Source: a virus
Virus record (IMG/VR): IMGVR_UViG_3300008216_000062
Span: 1 to 26,839 of that record
DNA length: 26,839 nt
Direction: 5' to 3' (one strand)
The position numbers were made by a program, and so were the translations under genes. Below are positions 1 through 21,507 of the stretch, in pieces. The notes beneath the pieces were generated by a model. The model searched no databases. It had not been told where the DNA came from and saw only the letters and a program-made list of their open reading frames with translations. Each line of letters begins with the position of its first letter. Within the stretch, counting starts at the first letter, position 1.

Positions 1-3000
1 ATTCATCTGTTATATCATCAGTATCAGGTAACATTGATGTAAGTGGACCAATATATTGAGGAAAGACTTTTAATAATGGCCCATCAGGATCATTAATTAA
101 TTTAATGATTTCATATCTAGTTAATTTTGATCTTTTAGTAAATTCGTTTTCTTTTCCTTCTTTCTTAAGTTTTTCTAAATTAACGTCATTAATCCTAGTT
201 AATTCATCAAAATAGACTTGTTGATAACGAACCATAAATGCAGCATGTAGAATTTCTCCTATCTGTACAATAGCATTCCTGGTTTCCTTGGTTGCGCCAA
301 GCATTTCCTCTAAACCATATTGAAATCTAGGCGCTAGGTGTAGGCTGATTCGATGTAGTAAATAGGTTTCATTAAAATATTTATTTAATGACGTGCCTTG
401 TTGTATAGCTTCTGCAAATTGAGTTCGATTAAGGATATTTCGATTCTTATGATCTTTACCTGGTTCAAATGCTCCAAGAGTAAAGAGACTATCTAGGAAA
501 GGTGTTATACGCTTGTCCCATAAGTCTTGTTGGTTCTCAACAGAACCAAAAGGCTCATTCTGAAATAAGCGCCGAATTTCTTCTCTTCTAGCTTCATGAA
601 TTTTCTTTTCTTCTCCAGTAAGAGTATCAGAAGGATCAGCCAATTCATTATAAAGTCGTTGTAACTTTCCTGCTTCCTTGTAGATATCTTTGATTATTTC
701 TTTTGTAACATCTTGGGAAATTCGATCAATACCTCCACCATACATATAAATCATAAATGGATATTTAGCGATATCACGTAATTTCTCTTGATTTCCTCCT
801 GTAAAATCTGGAAATACGGTATTCAGAGCTGTATCTAAAGAAGAGTACAGCTCTTCAAAATGCGTTTCATTTATTCGACGATGTGGTAAGAAACCTTTTC
901 CGAACCTATCTTTTATTGCTGAAAAATTAAACCTAAATTTCGCCTTGGATTGGGGTAATTTAAACCAATTAGTTTGATGGTAGAGAAATGCTTCCTTAAC
1001 CGTAGAATTAGCTAAAATATGATCTCCTAATGTTTGATACACGTCTTTTTGTAATGGATCATATTTATACTCTGTACCGTATGTATTACCAACTTGATGT
1101 AAAACATTATCCAAATTGTTAAATTGAGGGAATTGCATAACATTAATAGCAAACCCATTCGAAATACCATCAGCTTGGAACACAATATCTGATGTAAATG
1201 AGGCACCTTTTTTTAATTCAGTATCATTAAAAGAATCTGATTTAGCTGGCATATATTGAGTTAATGCTGTGATAGCATTAAGTAAAGAAAGGTTACTATC
1301 TTTATATTTAGATTTAATTCTTCGTAACGCGTCTGCTAACGTTGTATAGGTTTCTTGGTCCACACCTTCTTTTTTCGCATTAATAGTTTGTAAGGCTTGT
1401 ACAGCAATTAAAACATCGGTATTAGTAATAATTTGTTGAAACTCAATTTCTGCAAAAGAAAAGCGATTTTTATCAACTTCTAACCCAAAATTCTGGGCAA
1501 CAGCTAATTTAAATTTCCAAAGATTGTTATTAGTAAATTTTTCTGCATCCCAAGCTCGTAATAAAAATCGAGTAACCTTACTATTTTGAGGATTAATTTG
1601 TCCTTGCATCATAATACGATGATGGTTTTGTATTTCGTATTTATAATAAAAATCTTTTAATAAATTATTGTCCCCGTTATTATCAAATGCTTCTAATATA
1701 GTATCGAGATCTTTTATTTTATCTTGATTAGATGCGAGAAGACTTTCTTTTTCAGCTTCATGATGATGATCTTCAAGAATAGGTGCGACTCCTGCTAAGT
1801 GTTGTAGAATTGTAATTCCATATTCATCTGTAAGCTCAGCTTGCTGTAACATTGCAGCAGTACTCATAGTTTCAGAAGCATTCCATTTAATTTTTTGAAG
1901 CTTTGCCAGTACACTTGCAACTTTTCTAGGAATTTTTCCGAACGTACCTTTAATACTATCAGATACTTTAGGAGGTTTGGTGAGAGGTTTGTCTTTATTA
2001 ATTTCTATATCGGTTTTAGTAATAGAAACCAATTCGGCAACAATAGCTCGTTCAGCTTTGAAGAAGAAACGACGTTTTTCTTCTCCTGCACCAGTTGGTA
2101 TCGTATATAGTTTGGAGGTTGTATGTTTAAGTGCGCTATGTGTTTTGGCAAAGGAATAACGTTTGGCAGTTTTAATGTGTTTATAAATAAGAGGATTGTT
2201 TTTTGGATGATAATTATTAAAATTTCGTCCTGGAACAACGGCTTCAGCAAAAGCCCATCGATGTTCAATAACTTCTAATAATGCTGTAGGATCATTTTGT
2301 GGACCTTTTGCTATCTCTAACGCAGCTAATCCTAAAACTGGAATTAAACTCTCAAAATACAAATCTGCGCCAATTTTTTGAGGATGATCCTCAGCTAGTT
2401 TTTTAATAGAAAATTTTAATAATGAAGCAACATCTCGTCCAATCTCATCAGCAGCTTGATGATAATCAAAACCAATTTTATTAACTTCTGCTATTTCATC
2501 TTGTCCAAGTGCATCACCTCGTAAAGCATTTGCACCATATAAAAATTGTACTCTCTGATAATCATTAGTAAATCGACGATCAGTTGGTCTTTGTTGTTGC
2601 CATAACATTGCCCCAATCATAAGTGCAAATACAACTTGATCTGGCAAGTATCCTTCACGTAATAAAAGGGATAAGGGTTCACCTGTTGTTCCAATAATAT
2701 AATTATGAGTTGAGACATTACCAGCAATTCCTACCTTTGGATCGTAATATCTCTTTCTAAAATCTCTATATTTTTCTATTAAAACTCGTGCTCCTGGATC
2801 AGACATTCCTAATGTTGTCAGAGCTTTATATAATTTATCTGGAGCAAACGCACCAACTACAAGCTTTCTACCTTTATATTGTTGCGAGTCAATATCTTCT
2901 TGCGTCCATTCAAAATCTGTATCTTGTAACGTATGCAAACCTGGTGTTTCTAATTCTGGATCTACGGATCCTATATGAATTAAATCCGTAAAAAACGCAC

Positions 3001-6000
3001 CTAATAAATTAAAAGATTTTTCTAAATTTTTAGAAGAATCTTTTAATTTATCTACAACTTCTTTTGTTACTACTGATTCGTAAAGTTTTTTCCCAAAAGC
3101 CTTGGCACCTTCAATAAAATTTGTAAGAGTGCGGGGAAATAGTTCTAATTGAGTTCCTTCAGCCTCCGCTGGCGCGTCGGCTTCAGTTTCCTCTGTAATA
3201 TCATCAATAATTTCATTAATTTCATCAGCAGATAACTCAAGTGTATCACTCTCGTCTTCAGGTGTTTTATCATCAGTATCAAGGGTTCCGTCTCTAGTAG
3301 CCCTAAGACGTTTAATGATTGCTTGAATAGTTTTAATTTCATCTAGATCTTCCTTTGTTTTAACTTTTTTCGCCAACAATGTATTAAGTTGTTGAGCATA
3401 TTCTGCAATTTTTGTGTCAAGAACAGATTTGGTGTAATCAGATATTGTTTCTGATATAGGTTGTTCTGCTGTACTAGGTTTTCCAAGCTCATCAATTTGT
3501 TCTGGTATTGCAGCTTTTCGAGGTGGAGCAAAACTAGCTTTAAGTAACGCTGATACCCGATCTTGAAATATTTTTATATCCTCTTGCTCAAAACGGATAT
3601 GCCTTGATCTTTTTTCAATAGAACTTCCTGTATAGCGTTGCACAGCATCTAACGCACTTTGTCCTAAAGTTACTTCATTTTTAAGTCCTTTAATTAATTT
3701 AATCGAACCATTAATTTGTTCTGGAGTAGCAACAGAAGAATTCGCATCAATTCGATTAAGGTATCGTCCTTCTTCCCGTTGCGTATGGTAATCACTTACT
3801 TTCATCTTTTTAACTTCATATTGCATTTTTCGTAATGGTGAAGCTGGATCAATTCGTGTTCCTTCAACAGCCCATATTTCACCTTCTTTTACAGGATCGG
3901 ATATATTATTTGCAGCAGCTTTTTCAAATGCAATTAATTTATTATTAAGATTATCAGCATGTGTTTCCATCTGTTCTTTAAGAACTTTGAGTTGCTGCTC
4001 TTGCATTAATTTGGGTAATTTTTTTACATTTCTCCACAGAGTAATAATTTCATCTCGAAAAGTATGAAGACCTTTAAATCGAGCAGTCTCTCCTTCCAAA
4101 ATATCTTCATTTACTTCTACAAAATCTTTATCATGAACCTGTTTTTCTAAATTTCCTTTTTTATTATATTTAGCTTTATCTTTATTAGCTTTTTTAACAT
4201 CTTCAAGAAGACGTTTATCTTCTGGAGTAATATTAGGATCAGCAAGAGCTTCATCTATTTGTTCATCAGTAGCTTCCTGTACATCTGCTGCGGCTTTTTC
4301 TGCATCAGGACCGCTAAATAATTTATCACCTACGGAGTTAGTATCTAACAGATCTGGAAACTTAGCTTCTACAATTTTTGATACAACAGCACGTATCTCT
4401 TCTTTCTGTTCATCAGTTAAATCTCTATCAGCCATTTCTTCTATTTGAAGAAGTAGACTCTTACGAATTGCTGCAGTTACCTGATCAGGTTTTAAAGTTT
4501 GTTGTTGCTTACGAAGATTAGCAAGTTCTGTAATACCTTTTTTTCGATTTGCATCAAACTTTTCAGTTTCAGCTTTAAATCGTTGATAGGCAACAGGATC
4601 ACTAAAATCTTGTTCTGTAAAGCGTTCCCCTTCGGCATTCAGCCAAGCTGGATCTTCTTCTTTCAGAGAAATAGTATTTTTTGTAATAACCGTATTATCA
4701 TTTGGGTCTGTTTCTATTGTTTGTTCTAAACCACTATTTTTATCTGGAACATATTGAAGCAATTCAGCCGAATCAGTTTGTGTAACATATATCGGGTCAT
4801 TCGTTTCAATATCCGGGTATTGACCTGTACTTGGATCAATATCTACTATTGTTAATTGACCTGTTTTAATGTGTGCCGGCAAAACATCTACTTCTGGCGA
4901 GGTATGTCTGGTTAATTGATCTAAAGGAACAGTCCTGGTTTTCCCTTCATGTTTTGCTCCACTTGGAAGCACACCATACTGTTCGTTAAGTTTCTTCAGA
5001 TCATGTTCAAGCATCCCAGGAATATGTTGTAATTTTTCTTGTTTTTTTTCTGTACTAAGTTTTGTATCATTTCGTATATTTTCAGCAATAAGTCCCCACA
5101 TTTCTTTGTAAAATAAATGCAGATACTCAAGGCCGAAATTGTCTATAATAGGTTGTTCATCTATATTATTGCCCAGTGATCTTTTTTTATTCCCTACATC
5201 TCTCTTAACTTTTGCAAGAATTTGTGCTTCTTTTTCTGGATCTAATTTTGTTGCAGAGTCTTCTTCAACAGAAACCTCCGCGTATGTTTTTCCATCTTTC
5301 TCATTTGTAAAAATTTTGGTTACAGTTCCGCCTGTATCAGTAAATTCATTTACCTGTTCTACAAACCAATCAACTTGTGTACCTATTTCTATAGGTGCAA
5401 TTTTTGGTGCAATTTGAGGAATAAATCCAGCTGTTTTAATTAATCGTTCTAGGAGCGTATTAAGTTCACCAGAGTGTAATTTTGTGCCATGTGATGAATT
5501 GAGAATTTTAAGAAGTTCATCTGTATTAACTTTTCCTTCTTTTTGATATTTGGCAATTTTTTCTAGTTGTGTCGTAATACTTTGTTTATGTACTTTAAGT
5601 TCTTCTGGAGTAAGCGGCTTTTTTAATGCTGCTTCTACTTGTTTTTTAAGTTTTTGATATTTTTTTAATTGTTTTTGTTTGTTAGGATTTTTAGAGTCTG
5701 GAGTTTGTTCAAGATGATTTAACATAAAATTAATGGTATCTAATCTTTTTTTAAGCTTTCTCCCAACAATACTTTCTTCACGTGTTATGGGAGCTGTATC
5801 TGTCTCAACTGCAATGGCATCTCGTTGAGTCTCTAATTCTTTAATTTCATCTTGTAATAATTGTTTGGCTTCATTAACTGCGTCAGTATGAGTTCGTGCA
5901 TAATTTTTTCGTAGCTCATAATATAATTCTTTAAATCGTTCATTAATTGTCTTAACACCATCTTGTACATCAGTGATGGGTTTTTTCAGTTCAGCAAGTT

Positions 6001-9000
6001 GTACTTCTATACCTTCTCTTGCCTCTTTATTTGTCATTCGATCTAGTTGATTTTGTAAATCTAGTCTTCGAGTTTCAATTGCAGCTTTAGCGGCTTTCTT
6101 CTGACTAGGTTGTAAAGCTTTATGAATTACTTTTTTACCTAATTGAAACGTTAGAAATGATCCTGCAATACCAGGCGTAGCTAATGCACCTTCTGCCGCT
6201 GCTAGAATGGCTTCTCCTTCAGAAATGTGCTGTCCTGTTATTCCATAGATTTCTGCAGCTTGACTCCCGAATTCTTGTGCGCCTTCCCCGGCCATAGCAG
6301 CAATAGGTCTAACAGCCAATGACTTAATTAATGTTTTAGATAAACCATCTTTTACAAGACTGTCATTGAATGTTTTTGCAACCTTATTTGCCCATTTAAC
6401 CCGATCACCTAATCCAGGTAATTTCTTAACTGCTCCCTTTACATAATGAAGACTGGCTTTTTCCAGTATCAGACTAATGGCCGCAGACATTTGAATACGA
6501 TGTCTAACATTGTCAGGAATAATTCCAGAATGACCTGCAGGTAAACTCTGTTTATATTCGGTTAACATTTGTCGAGATTTGCCTATAGCCATAGCACTTA
6601 ATAAACCAATTTGTACCGGAATATTACCTAGAGTTAAAGCGAGTGAAAATCCAATACTATCAAATCCCCCTTCAGCAAAAGCTCCGATGTTTTCAATAAT
6701 AGAAAGTATCGCTTCTGGTGCACCCTTCTCTTCATATAATACTTTATATGCTGCAACTGCACCTCGCATATATTTTCTGTTAACAGGCCATAAATCTCTA
6801 TAGTGTTCACCCATTTCTTGAATAGTAGCTTGGTAACTGGCATTTTCTTCAGCCTGAGCATTTAATCGCATAAGAACAATATGTTTAGGATTTGAGGCTG
6901 CCATCTGACCTGATTTAAAACTCACCATATCGTCATAATTAATAGTATGACCTGGATGTGTGATATTCCAATTTTCAACATGATCACTTAATGCTGGGGA
7001 TCCTGCAAACATGCCTGCAATAAGTTCAACTGGATAAGCTAAACTTTGCATTGTTCTATTACGCATTTCTTTCCACCATTCTGCAGAAAACGTAATATCA
7101 GAAAATGGAGCATCTGTAGTAGCCGCATAAGCATCTGCAGCTGCATAGGCAGCAAAGTGTGCAGCAGCACTTTTATGAGCAAAACCCCCAACATGTATCC
7201 CACCTTCTACTTGTGCTGAGTAAGTTGTTACTCCGTTTTCTTCATGTGTATGTACTATACCATCACCGAAAACGTCAGATTTAACAATTGGAGTAGTAGG
7301 TTTTAATGAAGCCCATTCTTCTCGTGCTGCAATATATCGTTGTACCCATGGGCTTGGCATTGCAGGAAGAACAGGACTTGATCTTTCCGGGATTTGATAA
7401 AGATTTCCTTTATATCTTAGAAAACTAGGCGGAGTAGGATCGTCTGGTTTGATATGTTCATCAGGTCTGAATCGAGTCCCTTCAACTACGGTCTCCGCCA
7501 TCATGGGAATACCTTTATCACCAACATATGGTTGTCTCTGGGGTAATTCCGGTGATTTAATAGGTGGAACAGACTGACCCAGATCATTAATTGGTACTTG
7601 AGTAATTGTATCATCATCTAGTTCATTTTTAATTTCATTAACTAAACGTTCTTCACCGTTCACAATCATCATATCTGGAGGTTCGGTCGTTTTTTGATCT
7701 GTTGGTAGAGGTGGTGGTTTTACTTGAGATTTATCAGTATACCAATTAAGAAATAGTGATAAATTATACATTACATGTTGAATAGCTTGTTTAGAAGTTA
7801 CATCAGTAATACGCTTATATCGCATATATTCTTGTACCGTTGTTTTTAATTTCTTCATCCCATCATCTTTATCAAATCCGAGTACGGCAAGATCATCTAC
7901 TTGTCCAATTTCTGCACGAAATTGTTGCCAGGTTTCCTCAACATTCAATACTGGTGATTTTATGGGTTTGCCACTTTCTATAACTTCTTTTGCAATACTC
8001 CCAGGAGGACCTGCAAAACGTGGTAATGGATCATCACGTAAGGTAGGTTGAGGTGGACGAACTAATGATTGCTGAGAATCCCGAACTTCTTCGTGTCTAA
8101 GTGTTGGGATAGGCGGTAATTCTGGTGTTATGGAAGTCGGTGATCGTTGCGCATATGCATAATGCTGAGCTGCAGTGACAGCTCTATCTATTAATTCATT
8201 AGAATAGGTATGATTAGGTGCTTCAAAGGTTAGTAATGCTAATCCAATTTGTTTAATTTTATCGTAATCTGCAAGTGCAATCGTATCACCGGGTTTCACT
8301 CCAGCATATCGACTAGCTCGAGCAATCATTTTATTTGTAGGATTATTATCTGTTAAAGGAGAAATTTCTGAGATGGCTTCTGCTACTGTCATGCCTCGCT
8401 TAAATTTTGTAATAAGATTCAGATATCCTGCACGTAATCCATGGAATGGTGTGTCTGTACTAAAGAATACAGTACTATCTGATTCAGGAAGTTGTCCTAC
8501 ATATGCAAGACCTGGAGTTGTTTTAATATTAAACGGATTATTCCGTTTAATACTTTTTGCAACAGACGGAGTAACAGCTTCGTGTTCTATAGCTTTTGAA
8601 AGATTCTGTTTTCCTGTTGGTATTGCTTTTCGTAATAATGTATTAGCAGCATGCTCATTTGTAATTCTTTGATCAATTTCTGCTAATTTTTTAGTACGAA
8701 TTGTTTCATAATTTGCTGCAATCTTTTTTGCTTGCGCATCAGTTTTACCAACATAGGCTTCCATTGGAAGCGTACTTTCTGCAATATTCGTTCTTTCTTG
8801 TACTAAATGTTCAAGTCTTTCATCACTAGTAGAGAGATTATGTTCCCAATTCTGAATAATTTGTTGTGGATCAATTTCTGTAGGAGTTCCAAACTGGGTA
8901 TCTAACTGGTCAGACAATTGATCGACCGCTGCTGGGGTAGGAATATCTGAAACATTCTGAAGATGTTTTTGTCCTAACAGACCTTGTCTTGCACTAACTC

Positions 9001-9451
9001 GTGCTCTTTTCGTTGCTATTTTATTTATTGTACCTACTTGTTCAAACAAGACATTTTTATCATCGACATCTTCTTCAGTATAATTAACAACAATCTCGTT
9101 AATTTTATCTTTCTCATCTTGTGTTAACGTTAGATCTTTGTCATCGGTTTGATCAACAGTTGGTACAGATTGAGAGCTTTGAAGAAGTTCTTCTATTTCA
9201 GATGTTTCTGGAAGGACATTTGGAGTATGTACAGATGTACCATTTTGCCCATTTTTATGAGCCATAAATGTTTCTTTAGCAAGCCGTATAGCTTGCCCTG
9301 TTTCACCATTTAATTTTTCAGCTTTTTGAGCTTGAATAGATTGTTTTCCAAGCTCTTTTTTTGCTTGAAGTAGAGAAGCAGTGGTATCAGGAGGATCTAA
9401 AGGAGTATCATATAAACCTAGAGCAGTTTTAATATCTTCATGTTTGGGCAT
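1..9451 (-). CDS. N4-like giant virion RNA polymerase, C-terminus beyond left edge
   Basis: I translated this frame codon by codon: it is open from the ATG at 9449-9451 to the left edge, at least 3150 residues. A stop lies in frame at 9461-9463, so this is the only ATG possible. The C-terminal part carries single-subunit (T7/N4) RNA polymerase motifs: a T/DxxGR-like segment at R2612 (reads NHHR, then NPQNSKVTR from 2620, matching T7 FNPQGNDMTK), motif A FQADGISNG with D2761, and motif B RDIAKYPFMIYMYG at 2892-2905 (T7 R627-G640 pattern R-x3-K-x3-M-x3-YG). Motif C would lie just off the window. N-terminal features: an NPFNI domain (about 303-420), Pro-rich linkers (about 440-680), hydrophobic stretches (about 910-950, 1075-1095), long Lys/Glu-rich helices, and an acidic linker (about 2055-2100). 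By N4 analogy it is packaged and transcribes early genes after injection. The ribosome site is weak, unlike its neighbours. Confidence 0.9.
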   Translation of the reverse strand, partial: MPKHEDIKTALGLYDTPLDPPDTTASLLQAKKELGKQSIQAQKAEKLNGETGQAIRLAKETFMAHKNGQNGTSVHTPNVLPETSEIEELLQSSQSVPTVDQTDDKDLTLTQDEKDKINEIVVNYTEEDVDDKNVLFEQVGTINKIATKRARVSARQGLLGQKHLQNVSDIPTPAAVDQLSDQLDTQFGTPTEIDPQQIIQNWEHNLSTSDERLEHLVQERTNIAESTLPMEAYVGKTDAQAKKIAANYETIRTKKLAEIDQRITNEHAANTLLRKAIPTGKQNLSKAIEHEAVTPSVAKSIKRNNPFNIKTTPGLAYVGQLPESDSTVFFSTDTPFHGLRAGYLNLITKFKRGMTVAEAISEISPLTDNNPTNKMIARASRYAGVKPGDTIALADYDKIKQIGLALLTFEAPNHTYSNELIDRAVTAAQHYAYAQRSPTSITPELPPIPTLRHEEVRDSQQSLVRPPQPTLRDDPLPRFAGPPGSIAKEVIESGKPIKSPVLNVEETWQQFRAEIGQVDDLAVLGFDKDDGMKKLKTTVQEYMRYKRITDVTSKQAIQHVMYNLSLFLNWYTDKSQVKPPPLPTDQKTTEPPDMMIVNGEERLVNEIKNELDDDTITQVPINDLGQSVPPIKSPELPQRQPYVGDKGIPMMAETVVEGTRFRPDEHIKPDDPTPPSFLRYKGNLYQIPERSSPVLPAMPSPWVQRYIAAREEWASLKPTTPIVKSDVFGDGIVHTHEENGVTTYSAQVEGGIHVGGFAHKSAAAHFAAYAAADAYAATTDAPFSDITFSAEWWKEMRNRTMQSLAYPVELIAGMFAGSPALSDHVENWNITHPGHTINYDDMVSFKSGQMAASNPKHIVLMRLNAQAEENASYQATIQEMGEHYRDLWPVNRKYMRGAVAAYKVLYEEKGAPEAILSIIENIGAFAEGGFDSIGFSLALTLGNIPVQIGLLSAMAIGKSRQMLTEYKQSLPAGHSGIIPDNVRHRIQMSAAISLILEKASLHYVKGAVKKLPGLGDRVKWANKVAKTFNDSLVKDGLSKTLIKSLAVRPIAAMAGEGAQEFGSQAAEIYGITGQHISEGEAILAAAEGALATPGIAGSFLTFQLGKKVIHKALQPSQKKAAKAAIETRRLDLQNQLDRMTNKEAREGIEVQLAELKKPITDVQDGVKTINERFKELYYELRKNYARTHTDAVNEAKQLLQDEIKELETQRDAIAVETDTAPITREESIVGRKLKKRLDTINFMLNHLEQTPDSKNPNKQKQLKKYQKLKKQVEAALKKPLTPEELKVHKQSITTQLEKIAKYQKEGKVNTDELLKILNSSHGTKLHSGELNTLLERLIKTAGFIPQIAPKIAPIEIGTQVDWFVEQVNEFTDTGGTVTKIFTNEKDGKTYAEVSVEEDSATKLDPEKEAQILAKVKRDVGNKKRSLGNNIDEQPIIDNFGLEYLHLFYKEMWGLIAENIRNDTKLSTEKKQEKLQHIPGMLEHDLKKLNEQYGVLPSGAKHEGKTRTVPLDQLTRHTSPEVDVLPAHIKTGQLTIVDIDPSTGQYPDIETNDPIYVTQTDSAELLQYVPDKNSGLEQTIETDPNDNTVITKNTISLKEEDPAWLNAEGERFTEQDFSDPVAYQRFKAETEKFDANRKKGITELANLRKQQQTLKPDQVTAAIRKSLLLQIEEMADRDLTDEQKEEIRAVVSKIVEAKFPDLLDTNSVGDKLFSGPDAEKAAADVQEATDEQIDEALADPNITPEDKRLLEDVKKANKDKAKYNKKGNLEKQVHDKDFVEVNEDILEGETARFKGLHTFRDEIITLWRNVKKLPKLMQEQQLKVLKEQMETHADNLNNKLIAFEKAAANNISDPVKEGEIWAVEGTRIDPASPLRKMQYEVKKMKVSDYHTQREEGRYLNRIDANSSVATPEQINGSIKLIKGLKNEVTLGQSALDAVQRYTGSSIEKRSRHIRFEQEDIKIFQDRVSALLKASFAPPRKAAIPEQIDELGKPSTAEQPISETISDYTKSVLDTKIAEYAQQLNTLLAKKVKTKEDLDEIKTIQAIIKRLRATRDGTLDTDDKTPEDESDTLELSADEINEIIDDITEETEADAPAEAEGTQLELFPRTLTNFIEGAKAFGKKLYESVVTKEVVDKLKDSSKNLEKSFNLLGAFFTDLIHIGSVDPELETPGLHTLQDTDFEWTQEDIDSQQYKGRKLVVGAFAPDKLYKALTTLGMSDPGARVLIEKYRDFRKRYYDPKVGIAGNVSTHNYIIGTTGEPLSLLLREGYLPDQVVFALMIGAMLWQQQRPTDRRFTNDYQRVQFLYGANALRGDALGQDEIAEVNKIGFDYHQAADEIGRDVASLLKFSIKKLAEDHPQKIGADLYFESLIPVLGLAALEIAKGPQNDPTALLEVIEHRWAFAEAVVPGRNFNNYHPKNNPLIYKHIKTAKRYSFAKTHSALKHTTSKLYTIPTGAGEEKRRFFFKAERAIVAELVSITKTDIEINKDKPLTKPPKVSDSIKGTFGKIPRKVASVLAKLQKIKWNASETMSTAAMLQQAELTDEYGITILQHLAGVAPILEDHHHEAEKESLLASNQDKIKDLDTILEAFDNNGDNNLLKDFYYKYEIQNHHRIMMQGQINPQNSKVTRFLLRAWDAEKFTNNNLWKFKLAVAQNFGLEVDKNRFSFAEIEFQQIITNTDVLIAVQALQTINAKKEGVDQETYTTLADALRRIKSKYKDSNLSLLNAITALTQYMPAKSDSFNDTELKKGASFTSDIVFQADGISNGFAINVMQFPQFNNLDNVLHQVGNTYGTEYKYDPLQKDVYQTLGDHILANSTVKEAFLYHQTNWFKLPQSKAKFRFNFSAIKDRFGKGFLPHRRINETHFEELYSSLDTALNTVFPDFTGGNQEKLRDIAKYPFMIYMYGGGIDRISQDVTKEIIKDIYKEAGKLQRLYNELADPSDTLTGEEKKIHEARREEIRRLFQNEPFGSVENQQDLWDKRITPFLDSLFTLGAFEPGKDHKNRNILNRTQFAEAIQQGTSLNKYFNETYLLHRISLHLAPRFQYGLEEMLGATKETRNAIVQIGEILHAAFMVRYQQVYFDELTRINDVNLEKLKKEGKENEFTKRSKLTRYEIIKLINDPDGPLLKVFPQYIGPLTSMLPDTDDITDE

Positions 9452-9495
9452 AACATTATATTACTTCATTTATCCAGATTTGGATTTACTTCGGG

Positions 9496-11601
9496 TTAGT
9501 CGGTTAGTACCAGTGTCCTTCCAGATTTTCCATCTTTTGTTCTCCACTCTCCCTGAACAGGATCACGTGGAGTATCCTGTTTTAACAACCCTCCAAGCCA
9601 TGATTGTAATGCGTCTACATTTTGTTGAAATGTCTTTTCGCTTTCAGCAGTAAGACCAGTAGTTGATCCGACGTAATCGCCGTAGGTTGAGGCGCCTGGA
9701 AGTGCCGCCGATAGTGTTGTCGGAATTGACGGCGGGGCTGGATTATTCTTAATTGCTTCTGTAAGTTTAACTTCTACTAATTCTGCGTCGTCTAGCCTTG
9801 TCTCTGGTGCTCGCAGGTCCGACTTTCTAGAGGGTAAAGATTCAAGTATACCTTGTAATAGTGTAGATACATGTACATCAGTTATTTCGTCATCCAGTCC
9901 GACTAACCCGATATCATCATCATCACCAAACCAGTTAAAGATAAAATTTCTATCCTGATCTAATGCTGTATATTTTTCAAAAAAATTAACCATCCCAACA
10001 TGAAGAGTTTGTTCCTGGGCAAGTGTTAATGTTGATAATCCTTGCTCATTTCGAAATACATTCAGAACCTTTTTACTGGCCTTTCCAATTTCCTCTTTAA
10101 TTGTGCGAATTGATTGTCTTTCAAAATCGTCTCCATATTCTTGCTTCATTCTCTTAATAACTCTATTCCAAGCAGCTGGAGCTACTCCGCCACTGTTTCC
10201 TATTTCATATAACAGTTCTCGATTCTTGTCGGTGTGCTGCTGCGATGCTTCTATGGCCGCTTGGGTCGCTTGTTTTTCTGCTGTTTCTAGTACATTACCT
10301 GCTGTATAAGCATCCTGTACTTTACTGACATTAATTCTCTCTTTGGCTTGGATTTTTAAAATGTCCCTAGGAATTTTTGGATATTTCTTGTGATATATAT
10401 CAGTGATGTACTCTAAGAATCTTTTTTGATCAAGACTACCTGGAGCTTTTTGATAAGCGCGTTCCCCACTACCATTAAATTTTATAAATAATTCATATAT
10501 TTCATCGACAGGTTGACCAATTAAGTCAGGATGATGTTTAGCACTTTTATGAGTCTCAAGATACCGTCCTTCAGGAAACTCTGTTGCTTTCTTAGGCAAC
10601 AATGCTGTTGAATCTAATGCTCTACGGATCATGCCAATTGCCCAATTTTTTTGTTCATCAGGAATATCAGGATTAGTATTTAAAATTTCACTCATTTCTG
10701 TCATAACTTTTTCTAATTCAATTGCATTTCCGCCTTCATACTGACCACTTACCTTATTAAGACTTGGAAGATGTGCTTCAACTTTCGCTGCCAAGTCCCT
10801 CATTCTTTTTAGCGGATATGTTCTATCTTTTTCATCTTTCATTCTCCGCTTAAAATGAATACCATGTGGACTTCTATCAACAGCATCTTGTGCCATTTTT
10901 CTACGAGTTGCGTATAGTACAGTACTATTTTCTACTCCTAAGTCGTGAGCGATATTATCAATTAATTTATTATAAGAGTCTTTTGTGTAAGAATCAGTAG
11001 CAAATGTAGCTAATTCATCATTTTCTCCAGCAGACACTAATCTTAAACCCGCATTTTTCAAATGATCAGCATCAAGATAATTTGTATGATCTATTTTTAT
11101 TTCTTGGAATGCAGAAGTCTGTGCTGTTGTTAAAATATTATTTGGATCATTTATACCAGCGAGAGCATTAGCTTCTATAAACGCATTAAGTTGGCTTCGT
11201 CGTTCTGCAGGATCCTGGATTTTAGCTATCTGATCTGCTTGATTAAGAACGTGTACACGATCTTTATCTTTTCGTATGGTTACATCGTCCGTTAAAAATC
11301 CAGGTAATTTTTGATGCAGTTTAGTTACATTTGGTGCAAAGAGCGAACTCAATCCTGCTCCTTGTTGATCATTCTCCATTGTTTGCAGAAAGGCTTCTCG
11401 TGCTTCATGAGAAGGCAGTTGAGCAAGTTCCATTTCAGCTTGACTTTGATTCTCTTGTTGAACATTAGTTGTATACGTCGATATATCCGTTAGAATATCA
11501 TCTTGTTCCTGTTGAAGTGCAACACGTGCAGAACCCATTTGGGCTATATAATTCGACGTATCACCAGCAGCAACTGATCTCCATGTTGTTGGTAATGCCA
11601 T
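9496..11601 (-). CDS. 701-aa helical virion protein, probable internal/ejection protein
   Basis: I recognise no named domain. The protein is 701 residues, soluble and mostly helical, rich in Gln, Glu, Asp and Lys, with no signal peptide or membrane helix. It has an acidic patch (GDDDDIGLVGLDDE) about four-fifths along and a Pro/Ala/Thr linker before the last 60 residues. Start is ATG at 11601 with a clear AGGAG upstream. It lies immediately upstream of the giant polymerase gene (44-base gap) and 10 bases after the 272-aa gene, the place of the minor virion proteins in N4 (gp51-gp52 region). I infer a minor virion or ejected protein that works with the polymerase. It could instead be a tail-lumen component. 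Confidence 0.6.
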   Translation of the reverse strand: MALPTTWRSVAAGDTSNYIAQMGSARVALQQEQDDILTDISTYTTNVQQENQSQAEMELAQLPSHEAREAFLQTMENDQQGAGLSSLFAPNVTKLHQKLPGFLTDDVTIRKDKDRVHVLNQADQIAKIQDPAERRSQLNAFIEANALAGINDPNNILTTAQTSAFQEIKIDHTNYLDADHLKNAGLRLVSAGENDELATFATDSYTKDSYNKLIDNIAHDLGVENSTVLYATRRKMAQDAVDRSPHGIHFKRRMKDEKDRTYPLKRMRDLAAKVEAHLPSLNKVSGQYEGGNAIELEKVMTEMSEILNTNPDIPDEQKNWAIGMIRRALDSTALLPKKATEFPEGRYLETHKSAKHHPDLIGQPVDEIYELFIKFNGSGERAYQKAPGSLDQKRFLEYITDIYHKKYPKIPRDILKIQAKERINVSKVQDAYTAGNVLETAEKQATQAAIEASQQHTDKNRELLYEIGNSGGVAPAAWNRVIKRMKQEYGDDFERQSIRTIKEEIGKASKKVLNVFRNEQGLSTLTLAQEQTLHVGMVNFFEKYTALDQDRNFIFNWFGDDDDIGLVGLDDEITDVHVSTLLQGILESLPSRKSDLRAPETRLDDAELVEVKLTEAIKNNPAPPSIPTTLSAALPGASTYGDYVGSTTGLTAESEKTFQQNVDALQSWLGGLLKQDTPRDPVQGEWRTKDGKSGRTLVLTD

Positions 11602-11611
11602 GAGTGGTCTC

Positions 11612-12430
11612 CTATATCGTTCTGGCTACATCAGTTGGTCGAGTATATCGCGTACCTGATGGATCATTAGCTTTCATCCAATCTCTGACATTGGCATATT
11701 TAAAATTAATCATATCTGCTTGATTTGCTAAATTCACTTTAGCCATAGCCCCCATTCGGTTTGCTTCTTCTCTAGCGAAATTGAGTTGATCCCGTGCCAT
11801 TCCTTGACGTTCGATATTTTGGAGAAGACCAAAACCAGTTAGTCCTAAATCAAGCGTATCTTTATTCAAGCCAAGCCCTCGACCTTTACCAAAGAAATCG
11901 TCAAACATGCCTGGTTTCTTGTCTGGAGGTGGTGGGAGTCCAGGATCATACTGACCTCCTGGCATGAAATCAGGATTTATGACTAGATTATAAGCTGGAT
12001 TATTTTGGAGATTAGCGAATGTTCCGAATGATCCGAATCGTGATTTTGGTTGACTACCTCCAAATCTTCCACTGAGAGATAGATTTCCTGCTCCTCCAAA
12101 ATAATGCCGCGATTGGTCTGCTGGAGACCAATTATTGTGACTAGGAAAAGCAAGTTGTGCCAGATTGCTTTGTGGTGTACCTGGCATTTGTATAGGATCT
12201 AGTAAAGTAGTTGATCCTTGACTTGGTCCTTTAAATTGTAAATTACCAGCCTCATCCTCGAAAAAACCAGGAGGTACAAGTTTACGAGCCTTACCTTTTG
12301 ATTTTGGATAATTAGAAAAGGTAAGGTTAGCAACAGGTTGACTACTAGGTGAAGCGCGTAACTGATTATCTTGTAGTCGTTTTGTTTGCCCCCACCTAGA
12401 GTTGATTTGATTTCGATCACGTTCAGCCAT
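11612..12430 (-). CDS. 272-aa Pro/Gly/Asn-rich virion protein
   Basis: Function is not recognised. The first two thirds are low-complexity and rich in Pro, Gly, Ser, Asn and Phe, including a PGLPPPPDKKPG stretch near residue 165. The last 80 residues look helical (DQLNFAREEANRMGAMAKVN). Such a disordered head and helical tail resembles small phage injection or capsid-associated proteins, but this is only inference. The ATG at 12430 has an excellent AAGGAGATATACGT leader. An 87-base gap separates it from the 934-aa gene upstream, the longest gap within the structural block apart from the hairpin after the capsid gene. Confidence 0.6.
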   Translation of the reverse strand: MAERDRNQINSRWGQTKRLQDNQLRASPSSQPVANLTFSNYPKSKGKARKLVPPGFFEDEAGNLQFKGPSQGSTTLLDPIQMPGTPQSNLAQLAFPSHNNWSPADQSRHYFGGAGNLSLSGRFGGSQPKSRFGSFGTFANLQNNPAYNLVINPDFMPGGQYDPGLPPPPDKKPGMFDDFFGKGRGLGLNKDTLDLGLTGFGLLQNIERQGMARDQLNFAREEANRMGAMAKVNLANQADMINFKYANVRDWMKANDPSGTRYTRPTDVARTI

Positions 12431-12517: not shown

Positions 12518-15322
12518 TTATGATACTAATTTAGGACTTAAACTGGCGTCAATCCTAGCTGTAATATTAAATTGGATTTTATCTAAATCAAATAAATTAT
12601 CCATAACTATGAAACTCTGCTCTGCCGTAACTGTTGGTTGCGTAATAATTCGTTGAACGACATCAATGGGCTTCTCCAAACCGTCTAAAATATCAGTATA
12701 TTCTTTAAGTAAATTGCCTGTTTTTTCTAATATATGATCAAGTTTTTGATGTATATTCTCTATTTCATGGTAAATATCTTTAGTTTGCGTTTCGATTAAT
12801 GCGGTTGCAGCTTTAAAACCTGTATGTAATATAGTACTTGGACTAAAAGCACCCATAAAGACAGGCGTCTGGATTGACCATGCTGCAAATGAACCCGCGT
12901 GTACTGTAGGATTACTTACGAAATACCCAGCTTGTGTGAAGTTAGTTCCCGCTGCTGCACCAATTGTTTGTGTCCCAGCAGGAACTCCCGAAAATACTCC
13001 ACCTGGTTCAACACCAGTTGGAATACCAGGAGTCCAATCAGTCATTCCTGCAGCCATACCAGCCAACATACCCAGAATCATCGCAAGTTCTTCATCACCG
13101 GTTACAGCAACCACAATGGCTTGAACCATATATTGTACGGCCATTGTCATGACAATATGAATCACTGCTTTGGTAATAATTCCTGCAACAGCAACAGCAA
13201 GTTTCATAATACCTGCTGCAGCAGCTTTTGCAAGAATTTTCCCCGTAGCAGTCAGTGCTTTCCATGCTTTTCCTATTGATCCTGGAGCGTAAACAATAAT
13301 CACAACAACAACAACAATTATGACAAGCGCCGCCCATAAACTCATTCCAGGATGATTAATAATTTCGTAATGGGCAATATAAATTGATGCATGTGCACCA
13401 CGCATAAATAATGTTGTAATTTCTCTATGAGATAAATCTTTAATATTCGTATAAACAAATGGCATCATTAAATCATATTTATTTCCGAGATTAAATTTAA
13501 CCATTCGAAAATGCCCAGTATCCCCATCAATGACTTTACAGACAGCAATAGGAGCAGTCACTGTATAAGCATCTAGTCCGGATGCTTTACAACAATAATA
13601 GGTAATGCTTTGTCCATGTGTGGTTTCTTCAGAAGCTTGATTAACTAATCGTAGTGTGCCAGAGCCGTTATTTTCATAAATTAAATCCGGCTGGACATAT
13701 TTTAAATCACTTGCAGAATTGTCTGCTTCTAATAAATTAGGGGTAGGATTATTATAAGATAAACGTTCTGTTACTTGTAACCAGTTTGTGGCTTCTCCTG
13801 TTGTTGTACCAGGATTAACAACCCCATTTCCATCAAGAAAATCCTGAACTTCGCTTAATGTACTCGCTTTGTACCCAACATTATATAATCCTTTGCCAGA
13901 CGAGACATAGTAATTATTATATAAAATATTATTACTAGTAAATCGTGACATATCTGAATAGTAAATACCGTTTTGTACACTGCCACTATTCGCATTAATA
14001 TCAGTAAGTGAGGTATGTTCGTAAGTAATATATGCCCATCGAAAAATCCAGCGACCATCATCAGTTTCCGTAATAATATTATTGGCAGGTTTTTCATCTC
14101 CTGCAGGCGTATTATCGTACACTCCTTTAGTAACGCTCTGTGAAGGATAAATATTCTCAAACATTTGAAATAAATATCCCATGCCTGGTTGAGACGTATC
14201 CCACATTCGTACACCAAAATTAATATAAATATGATCAACATCTCCTGGTTGAGATCCAGGATCACTCATAATTCGATCTAAAAGCGCTTCTGCATCGATG
14301 TTAACCTTAAAAGCTAAATCATCGATTTGCTGGGCTTTTGTTGCACCAAATGATGTAAAATCTGTATTACTAATTCTTAATGGAATAGGATTCATTGATT
14401 GAATATTCAAACCTTGTTGATCAATAGGATCTTCAACAGTATCTAAATCAGTATATGTTCCTGACCCAGCTTGGTAGATAAAAATATAAGTACGAGAAGG
14501 GGCAGAATTTCGATAATAAAACGAAACGTAGTGAAGTTGTGTAGGTCGACTTGGAACCGTATAAGAAAGGGTTCTGGTAATACCAGATACATTATAGACC
14601 TGAACAGTATAGGTATCCGGAGTGGCATTATAGACAATCGTGCCAAAATTCACTTGCCAGCGTGTATCAGCTAAGACATCATCTGACGTCGAGACGGCAC
14701 TTGTAATCTCAACAGCAAAATGATTTGTAGACGGGGTAACAGTAACAGTATCTGCGGCAGGAGTGACTGGAGATGTGACAACTTCACGATAGACTGTACC
14801 TAAAAGATTATCTCCAACATCATAATCTTTATTTTCTTGTAACCAATATTTAACCCAATCAGATTTTGATAAGGCTCGTAAATAGGCATTTTCATTTGTA
14901 CAAGGAACGCCATTCAGTGTATCTAATACATCTCCAAGTTCACTGTAATCAATAATTAAAATGTGGGATTGTATTGATGGGAATCCTTCAAAATAATAGC
15001 CATTCTCAATAAAGGCCATAAATTTCTTAATATTCCCTTTAAGTTCTGTAAAATTTAATGCAAAGATTAGTTCACTAATCAGACTGGTTTCATTATAAAT
15101 GCTGGATTGGATTGCACTGGTAAGAGTGACGGTTAAGTCTTCATCTGTAAATAACGGAATATTATGAACTTCATAATATTCAACAACCTGGGTACTTCCG
15201 CCATCATAGCCTAAAATAACCATGATAGCCGTAACTACGGTTTCAACAACCTGAACAACTGCATCAACTATCGCAACAACAACATCAACAACTGATTGAA
15301 AAATATCGGCTATAAAACCCAT
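12518..15322 (-). CDS. 934-aa virion protein with internal membrane block (putative tail-tip/ejection protein)
   Basis: I do not recognise a named family. The order along the protein is: a very hydrophobic Val/Ile-rich N-terminus (residues 1-38), a long Thr/Ser/Tyr/Asn-rich beta-type region (about 40-640), a membrane block of about 100 residues (about 658-761) starting with a run of Val/Ile and continuing through Ala-rich helices to GMLAGMAAGM, a Gly/Pro/Ala-rich segment, a heptad-like helical segment (about 843-888), and a short C-terminal domain. The start is ATG with GGAGG upstream. It sits between the small capsid-linked proteins and the ejection genes. Such a layout fits a protein that enters or crosses the host envelope during DNA delivery, for example a tail tip or ejected channel. 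That role is inference; receptor binding is the main alternative. Confidence 0.6.
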   Translation of the reverse strand: MGFIADIFQSVVDVVVAIVDAVVQVVETVVTAIMVILGYDGGSTQVVEYYEVHNIPLFTDEDLTVTLTSAIQSSIYNETSLISELIFALNFTELKGNIKKFMAFIENGYYFEGFPSIQSHILIIDYSELGDVLDTLNGVPCTNENAYLRALSKSDWVKYWLQENKDYDVGDNLLGTVYREVVTSPVTPAADTVTVTPSTNHFAVEITSAVSTSDDVLADTRWQVNFGTIVYNATPDTYTVQVYNVSGITRTLSYTVPSRPTQLHYVSFYYRNSAPSRTYIFIYQAGSGTYTDLDTVEDPIDQQGLNIQSMNPIPLRISNTDFTSFGATKAQQIDDLAFKVNIDAEALLDRIMSDPGSQPGDVDHIYINFGVRMWDTSQPGMGYLFQMFENIYPSQSVTKGVYDNTPAGDEKPANNIITETDDGRWIFRWAYITYEHTSLTDINANSGSVQNGIYYSDMSRFTSNNILYNNYYVSSGKGLYNVGYKASTLSEVQDFLDGNGVVNPGTTTGEATNWLQVTERLSYNNPTPNLLEADNSASDLKYVQPDLIYENNGSGTLRLVNQASEETTHGQSITYYCCKASGLDAYTVTAPIAVCKVIDGDTGHFRMVKFNLGNKYDLMMPFVYTNIKDLSHREITTLFMRGAHASIYIAHYEIINHPGMSLWAALVIIVVVVVIIVYAPGSIGKAWKALTATGKILAKAAAAGIMKLAVAVAGIITKAVIHIVMTMAVQYMVQAIVVAVTGDEELAMILGMLAGMAAGMTDWTPGIPTGVEPGGVFSGVPAGTQTIGAAAGTNFTQAGYFVSNPTVHAGSFAAWSIQTPVFMGAFSPSTILHTGFKAATALIETQTKDIYHEIENIHQKLDHILEKTGNLLKEYTDILDGLEKPIDVVQRIITQPTVTAEQSFIVMDNLFDLDKIQFNITARIDASLSPKLVS

Positions 15323-16570: not shown

Positions 16571-17902
16571 TTATACTGCTGTGATGCAGGTCCAAATAAT
16601 ACCAAGTCTCTCTGGACGAAGTGCCATAAATCCATAGTACCACTTGATGGAGTAGAAGCCTACTTCACCATATGGATCATCCAAAGAAGCAATTTCTTTC
16701 CCAGGCTTCTTATGGTTAATGGAAAATTTGACATTCTTTCCGTCCGTTTGGAAACCAATCGTGGTGAAAGCACCATCTCCAACAACTAACATTGGATAGA
16801 TGTCCGCACCGTTATCACCCGTACCTGCAGTATCAGCGGCAGATGCACCACCGTTTTCCGTAAACTGCATTTCCGGAACAACAACGATTCGGAATTGGTC
16901 CACAGAACCAATTTCACCATTCAAGATATTACTGGCATCAGCGTATTTTTCAACACTGACAAAACCAGTACCAACACCTGAACCAGAAATGTCAGTCAAT
17001 TTACGCACAACAGGAATCAATTCTGACCCTATGTACATCACTCGACCACCATTCACGGTTTTGGTATCAACCATACGAGAACCCGCAATAATCTTCGTTT
17101 GCTTAGGTGTTTTATTATCATCCAACGCAATTGAAAGATTCATCAAATCCTCGTATTTCACAACTTCGTCAACAGCTAACTTCGCTGATACACCACCGCC
17201 TTTAACAGCAGCTGTTGCACCTGAACAGAAGTAGGCTGTTCCATTTGCTGTGGCATTAGTAATCAGATCTGCCTGAAGCTCTGCTTCAGTCAGCTCATTC
17301 GCCCCAACAAGAGCTTCCTCAGTAATATGAGACAACAAATCAGCATCTGAATCGAAGTCCATTGATTCCTGAGTATACTCAGTAAAGAATCCACGTTTCA
17401 GCAATTCACCCTCAACTTGTGTCCGGGTAAATCCAACGCGATTCACTCTACCGCCGTTTTCACGAAGAGTTGGTATTTTAGATGTAATTGTTCCGGTATC
17501 TTTAGAAGATCCGTACAAGTTCTGGTCATTCAATCCAACTTCACCGTCAACACCAGCTGCAGTTCGAGCAGCAGCTCTATTTGCATAGTTGGTATTTTGA
17601 AGAACACCGGCTGCATTCCATGCGGAATACGTTCCAGCGGTTAACGCCGTACCTGCGGCATCTAATCCCTGGTCACCAGTGTTTAATACATCAAGCATAG
17701 GTACATACACATCTTGCTTGATTTTCTTACCCATATGTTTAGGCATCGCACGTACATCAGCCAAAGGCGTGAAGTACATCTTATCCCGAACAGAAATCAG
17801 GGCTTTCTTAAAATAATAATCGGTTCTCGCTTGAGCGCCGATATCTGATGCAGTCCCACTAGCGGTACTAGAAGGACTATTATATGCATTTTCGTTTGCC
17901 AT
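16571..17902 (-). CDS. Major capsid protein, N4-gp56 family
   Basis: This 443-residue protein has the layout of the N4-gp56 major capsid family (HK97 fold): an N-terminal arm, then KKALISVRDKMYFTPLADVR and PKHMGKKIKQDVYVPMLD, a central helical domain (about 165-230), then the hallmark NGEIGSVDQFRIVVVPE, YPMLVVGDGAFTTIG and a C-terminal DPYGEVGFYSIKWYYGFMAL. Length is close to N4 gp56 (about 400 residues). ATG at 17902 with AGGACA upstream. It follows the scaffold gene after 31 bases and is followed by the terminator-like hairpin, as expected for a highly expressed gene. Its GC content looks higher and its codons less AT-biased than its neighbours, which fits high expression. Confidence 0.92.
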   Translation of the reverse strand: MANENAYNSPSSTASGTASDIGAQARTDYYFKKALISVRDKMYFTPLADVRAMPKHMGKKIKQDVYVPMLDVLNTGDQGLDAAGTALTAGTYSAWNAAGVLQNTNYANRAAARTAAGVDGEVGLNDQNLYGSSKDTGTITSKIPTLRENGGRVNRVGFTRTQVEGELLKRGFFTEYTQESMDFDSDADLLSHITEEALVGANELTEAELQADLITNATANGTAYFCSGATAAVKGGGVSAKLAVDEVVKYEDLMNLSIALDDNKTPKQTKIIAGSRMVDTKTVNGGRVMYIGSELIPVVRKLTDISGSGVGTGFVSVEKYADASNILNGEIGSVDQFRIVVVPEMQFTENGGASAADTAGTGDNGADIYPMLVVGDGAFTTIGFQTDGKNVKFSINHKKPGKEIASLDDPYGEVGFYSIKWYYGFMALRPERLGIIWTCITAV

Positions 17903-19438: not shown

Positions 19439-19446
19439 AACCCTCC

Positions 19447-21507
19447 TTATTGTTTAGTCATTGCATCAAACGCAGATTTATCAAGATTTGCAAGACGATC
19501 AAACTCTTTATCATCCATATGTTGAGTATGCTTTCTTTCATCTGATTCGATCTCTCGAGCATGTTGGACACCAGATTCTTTTTCAACAAAATCAAGATCA
19601 GAAATATCAGATTGACTATGCATTCCTCTGGCCTTAGCTTGTTCTGTTGCAGCTTTCGCAGATTTCAACTGAACATCTACTTCATTCTCACGACCCTTAG
19701 CCATTTCATTTGCAACTTGCGCTTCTAATAAGGCATTTTCAAGCTGAGCTTTTTGTTGAGCCATTGGATCTGGTTGAGGTTGATATTCCGCAATACGTTT
19801 AGCTAAATCAGGCATTTTTCGTAATTGAGCAATATCCGCCAAAATCATCTGACTCATTTCCGGGGGCATGGTGTTACCCATTGTTTGAAGCATAAAAGCT
19901 AATTCACTACCTTTTTGTTCATCAGCTTCAGCAGTAGAGATATTTAATTTAATATCATATTTACCGCCTAAATCATTACGGTTAATCGCAACAAATTCTT
20001 CATTAGTAACACGAATAATTTCTTCATCATCTAAAAATTCTGAATTCATGGAAATAATTTTACGTCCAATTTGGTTTAATCCATTAGATAATCGACGTAA
20101 AATACCTAATTCACGTTTAGATGTAGCATCAAGTGCTGATCGAATACCAGTTGCTGTCACACCAAGTGCCTGACCAGAAATACCTTGAGTAAAGGCTTTC
20201 ACACCCGTTAATGCTTCAGCATCGTTATTTTGCATATTGAGGACTTCAAGGGCTGAACGAGGAATTTCCGGGTAGACTTCCATATGAAAGGCTTGTCGCG
20301 GATCGACATTCGCATTAAATTTATAATCCTCACCTCGTTCAAACTTTCGTGCATTGGTTACATCAAGAGCATCCTTTCTAATTCCTTGTTGTCCCGACGC
20401 GCTTCGACCAATAATATCAATAATACCACGGGTAACAGCGCCCACAATTTTTTGGTTATCTTCAATAAGTGCAGCATCAGGTTCTCCATAGATATTTTTA
20501 CGGCGTGGTAGATATTGAACTAAGACAAATGGAATCTTTTTATCAGGATAGGGATTTTCTTCCATTCTAATAAACGTGCTGCCAACCCATGTAGCCACAA
20601 ATGGCTTGACTTCACCAGTATCATCGATATCCCAATATCCCCAATATTCACGAGCAATTACCTTTTTACGAGCCTTATCTTTAAATGTAAAAGCTGTATC
20701 TTCCGTATTTACTTCATGATCAGGATCCGCTAGAACAGAAGCACTTTCAAAATTAATATCATCAAGATTCGTATATCGCCCATCTTTTTTCAGTTCGGAT
20801 AACGATGTTTCAAAACTGTAAATAACAAAGCTTGCTTTTTCGATATCTCCTTCACAAGTTGGATCTAATACTAAATTATTATAATCACAAACTGTTAAAA
20901 CAGGTTGATTCTTGATTGTTACTGTTTTTAACGTAGCTTTCTGACCAACTTTAATTTCTTGTTGTGTAGGTTCTCCTTCTGGACTCATAACTACTTGTCT
21001 ATTCATAATATCTTCATAAACTTTTCGTTTACCTTCTTCAAATTCCCAACCAGTACGTACAACGACCGTACCTTCATCAACAGCTGTTCGAATATATTCA
21101 TCAATAAATTTTACTTTATCCATACGACAATTAAACTGATAATTCAAAACCAGTCCATTTTGAACAGCTACTTCTTTATCTTCAAATGTTTGAGGAGAGG
21201 TATTAAAGAGATCATCTGTAGATAAGAATGGCTCAGATAAGGCTGCATAACGCCATTCAGCTTGTCTACGTGCTAATCGAGGAACTAATCTGGAACGTCC
21301 TTGCTTTGCATTAATTGTCTGATCCCCATCTAAAACCCGTAACCAAGCATCAATTTCATCAACATGGGCTTGATGAGCTACTAACGCGGATTCATAATCT
21401 TGTTTCAAATTAGCCAAACTAGGGGGATTTTCCCAATCTACCAGGGTAGAAGCATCCGTTTCGACAGCATCGGCGTCTAAATCTATATTATTATTTAATT
21501 CACTCAT
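19447..21507 (-). CDS. Portal protein, N4 gp59 family
   Basis: The 686-residue protein matches the large portal of N4-like phages: an N-terminal helical region with DEIDAWLRVLDG and KQGRSRLVPRLARRQAEWRY (about 50-90), a lower beta part with TVVVRTGWEFEEGKRK and the VLDPTCEGDIEKASFVIY segment, a wing and stem region, and ALGVTATGIRSALDATSKRE in the portion that leads to the crown. The C-terminal 100 residues form a Gln/Ala/Glu-rich coiled coil. N4 gp59 is about 760 residues, so the length agrees. It forms the dodecameric DNA channel at one capsid vertex. The ATG at 21507 overlaps the stop of the 114-aa gene (ATGA) and has GGGAG upstream. Confidence 0.88.
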   Translation of the reverse strand: MSELNNNIDLDADAVETDASTLVDWENPPSLANLKQDYESALVAHQAHVDEIDAWLRVLDGDQTINAKQGRSRLVPRLARRQAEWRYAALSEPFLSTDDLFNTSPQTFEDKEVAVQNGLVLNYQFNCRMDKVKFIDEYIRTAVDEGTVVVRTGWEFEEGKRKVYEDIMNRQVVMSPEGEPTQQEIKVGQKATLKTVTIKNQPVLTVCDYNNLVLDPTCEGDIEKASFVIYSFETSLSELKKDGRYTNLDDINFESASVLADPDHEVNTEDTAFTFKDKARKKVIAREYWGYWDIDDTGEVKPFVATWVGSTFIRMEENPYPDKKIPFVLVQYLPRRKNIYGEPDAALIEDNQKIVGAVTRGIIDIIGRSASGQQGIRKDALDVTNARKFERGEDYKFNANVDPRQAFHMEVYPEIPRSALEVLNMQNNDAEALTGVKAFTQGISGQALGVTATGIRSALDATSKRELGILRRLSNGLNQIGRKIISMNSEFLDDEEIIRVTNEEFVAINRNDLGGKYDIKLNISTAEADEQKGSELAFMLQTMGNTMPPEMSQMILADIAQLRKMPDLAKRIAEYQPQPDPMAQQKAQLENALLEAQVANEMAKGRENEVDVQLKSAKAATEQAKARGMHSQSDISDLDFVEKESGVQHAREIESDERKHTQHMDDKEFDRLANLDKSAFDAMTKQ

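Follow-up and report, generated by a model that had tools for sequence, protein, structure and literature searches.

The closest described systems to the locus analyzed here are the virion RNA polymerases (vRNAPs) of phage N4 (gp50) and of other cultured schitoviruses, together with polyvalent proteins that carry an N4-like RNA polymerase (RNAP). On native duplex DNA the N4 vRNAP shows no activity; it relies on host SSB and on gyrase-driven hairpins, and the transcription that it carries out assists genome entry (PMC4496689; PMC3715699). That ejected vRNAPs lack cysteine is already established for cultured phages (PMC3715699). In polyvalent proteins, N4-like RNAPs occur with HExxH peptidase, lysozyme/transglycosylase, and PBECR or ART domains; the parts of the survey covered here list no SF1 Dda/RecD-like helicase joined to an RNAP, and the SF1 helicase that they describe is UvrD-like and belongs to a plasmid protein (Iyer et al., 2017; PMC5512222).

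We examined an IMG/VR virus record in full (26,839 bases; hereafter, the window), which encodes a giant homologue of N4 gp50. The window protein and its relatives share with gp50 the fold, the Arg of the T/DxxGR segment, motifs A and B (and C in the relatives), the complete lack of Cys, an HExxH domain after the core (in the relatives), and a gene order that includes ejection proteins, the capsid protein, and the portal. They differ from it in having QxxHR where N4 has TxxGR, and His-Asp rather than Phe-Asp in motif C. The N-terminus of most clade members is also much longer than that of N4 and includes a hydrolase-like domain, and the closest relatives add a Dda-like helicase after the core, reaching up to 5,959 amino acids compared to 3,500 in gp50. 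The other cultured schitovirus vRNAPs considered (LIT1, phi50-12, XC38, D291, QDWS595, 1.245.O, DSS3P2, RHph_X3_15, and Vibrio phi 1) have the same catalytic residues, except that LIT1 has Phe at the motif B Tyr, and mostly a His-Asp motif C; in contrast to the helicase-bearing relatives, they are 3,024–3,646 amino acids long and have no Walker A helicase module. Stand-alone SF1B helicases of the Dda/N4 gp37 type resemble the fused domain in all helicase motifs and in Pfam and PHROG assignment, but the fused copies form a separate clade and are nearly all Cys-free.

Identity and genomic context of the polymerase

The polymerase open reading frame (ORF) encodes 3,150 amino acids and is open at its 3′ end; the C-terminus is missing because the contig ends there (Table 1). 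The original prediction, of an N4-type vRNAP core, was made for positions 1–2000 of the window (approximately residues 2484–3150) and is borne out by profile, profile-profile, and predicted fold comparisons, by gene order, and by the absence of Cys. PHROG family phrog_2206 (virion RNA polymerase) matches the protein, and the Pfam family PF21894 (N4_RNAP_helical) scores above its cut-off around motif B. Pfam PF21769 gave no match over the window's own record; in N4 it covers the region around motif C where the core ends, and most of that stretch lies off the window contig. Searches of PDB sequences with phmmer and with profiles returned no match, so N4 was reached only via profile-profile and fold comparison. 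With hhalign, the window core alone aligned to an alignment of five known vRNAPs at 98.7% (E = 2.4e-16), far beyond chance, and the clade aligned to known vRNAPs at 99.8% (1e-28).

Structure prediction gave core models of middling confidence, in which the T/DxxGR segment is poorly predicted. For the window core (pLDDT 59), Foldseek returned one PDB match at E ≤ 0.001, the N4 mini-vRNAP promoter complex 3c3l (E = 4.4e-7, prob 1.00). The complete core of a relative, L017 (pLDDT 62), matched the N4 vRNAP at 2.7e-13, with mitochondrial and then T7 RNAPs next; its matches to the N4 vRNAP entries 9pnq/2po4 lie at ~3e-13, and its VIA Z scores are 13.1 for N4 and 9.5 for T7. No other fold was matched better than the N4 vRNAP in these comparisons. 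The collections searched for relatives were IMG/VR, GTDB genomes, and an annotated phage set; no relative was found in the GTDB genomes.

The neighboring genes follow the order of N4: two ejection-protein positions, gp53, gp54, gp55, the capsid protein, gp57, gp58, and the portal. None of the 3,150 residues of the polymerase is Cys, although the Cys content of the window's other genes predicts ~19. At the site of its N-terminal hydrolase-like domain, relatives have a PF01464 SLT (transglycosylase) domain. The polyvalent-protein survey had already described, from a Moraxella prophage, an N4-like RNAP fused to a lysozyme/transglycosylase (PMC5512222), and N4's own ejection proteins apparently have no wall-degrading activity (N4 structure paper, PMC12633501).

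Taken as a whole, the locus is best explained as encoding an RNA polymerase that an uncultured N4-like phage (Schitoviridae type) packages in its virion and co-injects, a reading that we hold with high confidence, and we infer that the window protein is ejected and active as a polymerase. That it is instead a free cytoplasmic T7-like RNA polymerase, of the N4 RNAPII or Autographiviridae type, finds some support in the 61 residues around T/DxxGR-NPQ, which are ~40% identical to an Autographiviridae RNAP, but is exceedingly improbable given the large size of the protein, its late-gene position adjoining ejection-protein genes, its lack of Cys, and profile and fold matches that favor the N4 vRNAP over T7 RNAP. 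Furthermore, two contigs with a related helicase-zincin C-terminus (G007 and G008) also have an RNAPII-like gene of their own, a feature shared with N4.

Table 1. Features of the window, with positions on the 26,839-base record.
Feature	Position	Strand	Basis or remark
Giant virion RNA polymerase, N4 gp50 homologue	2..9451	-	phrog_2206 1.8e-49; 0 Cys; C-terminally cut
Polymerase core, residues 2113-3150	2..3115	-	N4 mini-vRNAP equivalent minus last, motif C-bearing part
Motif B, R2892...K2896...Y2904-G2905	737..778	-	alignment; PF21894 at 2862-2933
Motif A, D2761-GISNG	1154..1171	-	alignment
Gln2759 (CAA) at N4 Glu557 position	1175..1177	-	Glu in 23/23 other aligned sequences
NPQNSKVTR, residues 2620-2628	1568..1594	-	K2625, R2628 = N4 K437, R440
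T/DxxGR position, Q2608-N-H-H-R2612	1616..1630	-	Thr and Gly replaced, Arg kept
N-terminal peptidoglycan-hydrolase-like domain, residues 294-437	8141..8572	-	phrog_873 'endolysin' 2.1e-16
Putative ejection protein, N4 gp51 position, 701 aa, 0 Cys	9496..11601	-	gene order; no profile match
Putative ejection protein, N4 gp52 position, 272 aa, 0 Cys	11612..12430	-	gene order; weak phrog_2646
N4 gp53-position protein	12518..15322	-	phrog_2220 2.1e-43
Major capsid protein, N4 gp56 position	16571..17902	-	phrog_1357 9.5e-113
Portal protein, N4 94 kDa position	19447..21507	-	PF23899 8.6e-143; phrog_1216 1.7e-229
Beta-ketoacyl-ACP synthase-like protein	21845..22852	-	PDB FabF-type, E 3.3e-6
Small protein with acyl-carrier-like DSL motif	22863..23186	-	weak carrier-protein match
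dATP/dGTP diphosphohydrolase-like protein	23219..23656	+	
M15 peptidase endolysin	23658..24017	+	

Other genes of the window include, in the late region, a beta-ketoacyl-ACP synthase-like protein and an adjoining small protein with a DSL motif, both assigned to PHROGs of 'unknown function' (phrog_35856 and phrog_28189). A dATP/dGTP diphosphohydrolase-like gene lies on the strand opposite the structural genes and is followed by an M15 peptidase endolysin. On the contig of a relative (G009, 19209–20486; L060), the major capsid protein frame contains one TAA in a six-frame match, for which an assembly error, a frameshift, and recoding are candidate explanations.

Catalytic residues and the T/DxxGR segment

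Catalytic positions were compared in one alignment of 24 sequences, in which the catalytic columns are nearly invariant. The window keeps the equivalents of N4 mini-vRNAP Arg424, Lys437, Arg440, Asp559, Arg666, Lys670, and Tyr678. The residues originally assigned to the motifs (QNHHR with R2612, NPQNSKVTR at 2620–2628, D2761 in DGISNG, and R2892, K2896, Y2904, and G2905) were all placed correctly. The spacings given with them were also right: R2612 and D2761 are 149 residues apart and D2761 and Y2904 143 apart, and the N4 values are 135 (R1421–D1556) and 119 (D1556–Y1675).

The Gly of T/DxxGR is indeed missing, with N4 TRVGR aligning to QNHHR in the window (His at the Gly site), but the weight originally given to a "degenerate" motif is not justified. 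Only four of the ten cultured schitoviruses keep this Gly (N4, Vibrio phi 1, Rhizobium X3_15, and DSS3P2); it is gone in the other six (phi50-12, XC38, D291, LIT1, QDWS595, and 1.245.O) and in the whole clade of the window, where the segment reads Q-x-x-H-R, with Gln for His in L021. The Arg is present in all 24 aligned sequences. The missing Gly is therefore no sign of an unusual enzyme; judging by the alignment, its loss is ordinary variation, and the Gly does not define the family. The Arg would keep its conserved job, and the Gly would be dispensable. We rejected any reading of the geometry of the QxxHR turn from the models, where pLDDT is low.

Within the sequenced part of the core, a single checked catalytic residue differs: Gln2759 replaces N4 Glu557, a residue described as required to hold the phosphates of the initiating nucleotide (PMC4496689). 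Gln is unique to the window here, the other 23 of the 24 aligned sequences having Glu. CAA and GAA differ by a single base, and the Gln may thus reflect a minority variant or an error in sequencing. One could propose that a drifted T/DxxGR and a Gln in place of Glu557 mark an inactive or decaying polymerase, retained only as an ejection or structural protein, which would fit two positions unlike N4, one of them unique in the alignment. We consider this very unlikely in view of 3,150 codons without a stop, the integrity of all remaining checked catalytic residues, and the absence of the Gly in six of ten cultured schitovirus vRNAPs, on which ground decay inferred from the missing Gly was rejected. 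To our knowledge, T7 RNAP has no Glu at the N4 557 position, which also counts against an inactive enzyme.

The window contig stops short of motif C, which is therefore not visible in the window. A His-Asp motif C roughly 270 residues after the motif B Tyr, as in N4, had been predicted. The motif is present as LHDAF in ten of ten IMG/VR relatives with enough sequence, ~280–350 residues after the Tyr, so that this part of the prediction is upheld in the relatives; the comparison to N4 does not, since motif C in N4 is Phe-Asp (IFDGMN, D1948). His-Asp is found in T7, in many other schitoviruses, and in the window's clade, and is the more usual form among the aligned sequences.

Some variation was seen elsewhere in the cores. 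The most divergent fused polymerase (L040, ORF 2909–11380) keeps Gly-Arg (VTNGR) and has DAVTSG, not DGxTNG, in motif A. In L005 and L006, ~123 residues are inserted in the core ahead of the T/DxxGR segment; by eye the insertion looks like a DUF4326-type domain, without confirmation from Pfam, and a similar domain occurs in the C-terminal part of L002.

A Dda-like helicase fused to the polymerase in relatives

Close homologues of the window polymerase occur on contigs from several different metagenomes. In L002, L003, L006, and L016, an SF1 helicase directly follows the RNAP core in the same ORF. It matches Pfam AAA_30, AAA_19, and UvrD_C_2 as well as phrog_325 'Dda-like helicase' (7.6e-50), and its motifs are intact (Walker A GRGGTGKT, DEAS, GDNVQLPP, HKxQGST, and YVATSRP). 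These four and L005 are the five closest relatives of the window; L005 has the core and Walker A, and then its contig ends. SF1 motifs and an RNAP core are also joined in one ORF in the more distant contigs L036 (core E = 1e-122) and L040 (core E = 5e-68), and contig L037 begins within an ORF of the core-helicase type.

Contig L035 (3300032278_000010) comes from the same sample as L005 (IMGVR 3300032278_000201) and begins where the latter stops. The two probably represent one phage genome because they appear to meet inside the helicase, where both hold ...FSIE.... The L035 contig additionally encodes an RNAPII-like protein and a free Dda helicase.

An HExxH (zincin) domain lies after the core in all relatives that contain that part, the window contig ending earlier. 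It is downstream of the helicase in L002, L003, L006, and L016, and in N4 it follows the core; an HExxH motif also stands ahead of the helicase in L036 and L040. After the helicase of L002, residues ~3970–4430 include DUF7831 (PF25176, 6.8e-28) and, by eye, NADAR-like and DUF4326-like segments, which are candidate NAD/ADP-ribose-linked effector domains.

The helicase is missing in the sister group L017–L022, in which the flanking sequences on both sides are still alignable; in L017 the core leads directly into the zincin. No Walker A helicase module occurs in any of the ten cultured vRNAPs examined, N4 included. Among the matches listed from the annotated phage collection, helicase homologues are free Dda or N4 gp37-type proteins where annotated, bar one crAss-like sequence. 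The latter, from cr118_1 (NC_055872; L047, 15382–30222), is a RecD/Dda-like helicase located at the C-terminus of the product of a 14.8-kb gene; we rejected it as a stand-alone helicase since the annotation places it inside this gene. It may be a case of convergence, the virion RNA polymerase of cr118_1 being of an unrelated type.

All fused helicases form one clade in the helicase tree (100/99). They contain no Cys, apart from one in L040; the Cys count is two to seven in seven other Dda/gp37-type homologues of similar length. Contig G007 encodes both a free Dda-like helicase with eight Cys and a Cys-free fused one. The Cys-free copies and their single clade suggest a long shared history in which helicase and polymerase were ejected by the same route. 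No description of a superfamily 1 Dda/RecD-like helicase fused to an N4-type vRNAP was found in the open-access papers covered.

We consider it likely that the window protein also carries the helicase, in the missing C-terminus past the contig end. This rests on sequence relationships: the core tree groups the window with the helicase-bearing L002, L016, L003, L005, and L006 (91/96), apart from L017–L022; its N-terminal half gives longer aligned stretches with the helicase-bearing set; and L036 branches outside both the window's set and L017–L022, yet has the helicase. Some doubt attaches to the window because one sister subgroup has no helicase. No contig overlapping the window's end was found among other viral contigs.

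Possible roles of the fused helicase

By analogy to N4, the Cys-free polymerase would be expelled through the tail as beads on a string, after the gp52/gp51-type ejection proteins, and the N-terminal hydrolase-like domain may help the chain to pass the cell wall. The T7-fold core, for which motif C, beyond the end of the contig, would supply the second catalytic Asp, would then transcribe early genes and thereby help to pull the genome in. As in the closest sisters, a Dda/RecD-like SF1B helicase and then the HExxH (zincin) domain would follow the core in the same Cys-free chain. We propose that the helicase unwinds or pulls incoming DNA, supplying single-stranded template or pull for the polymerase. 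In its full form, in which the window phage ejects a single chain of cell-wall hydrolase, RNA polymerase, and helicase, with the helicase working with the polymerase and replacing the dependence on gyrase and SSB, the proposal is tentative and on balance rather unlikely to hold in every part.

The helicase of the relatives may instead be polyvalent-protein cargo, serving DNA repair, recombination, or counter-defence and freed by the HExxH protease after entry. This is a serious possibility, although short of probable. In the part of the survey covered here, fusions of N4-like RNAPs to unrelated effector domains beside an HExxH peptidase are on record (Iyer et al., 2017; PMC5512222); a DUF7831 domain follows the helicase in L002, and G007 encodes, besides the fused helicase, a free one of Dda type for replication. 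Cargo fits less well with a helicase placed immediately after the RNAP core in L002, L003, L006, and L016 and belonging to one clade across diverse members. We regard the cargo reading of the helicase as almost as likely as the joint-motor one.

Promoters were also considered. A scan of three relatives for hairpin promoters found a few isolated hairpins and no repeated family, the early region lying outside the window. One isolated pair, GGCGTAGCC (G007 24053 and G008 27143), was left as chance. The residues that recognize and contact the −11 element of the N4 promoter have no alignable counterpart in the window's clade.

Two points bear on the vRNAP family more broadly. The textbook Gly of T/DxxGR is not conserved in it, and therefore searches that demand this Gly overlook family members. 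For the large C-terminal part of N4-type vRNAPs, a 2025 structure paper guesses a role in 'binding to or unwinding DNA' (PMC12633501). In the lineage described here, a recognizable helicase sits between the polymerase and the C-terminal part, and the guess of DNA unwinding thus becomes testable.
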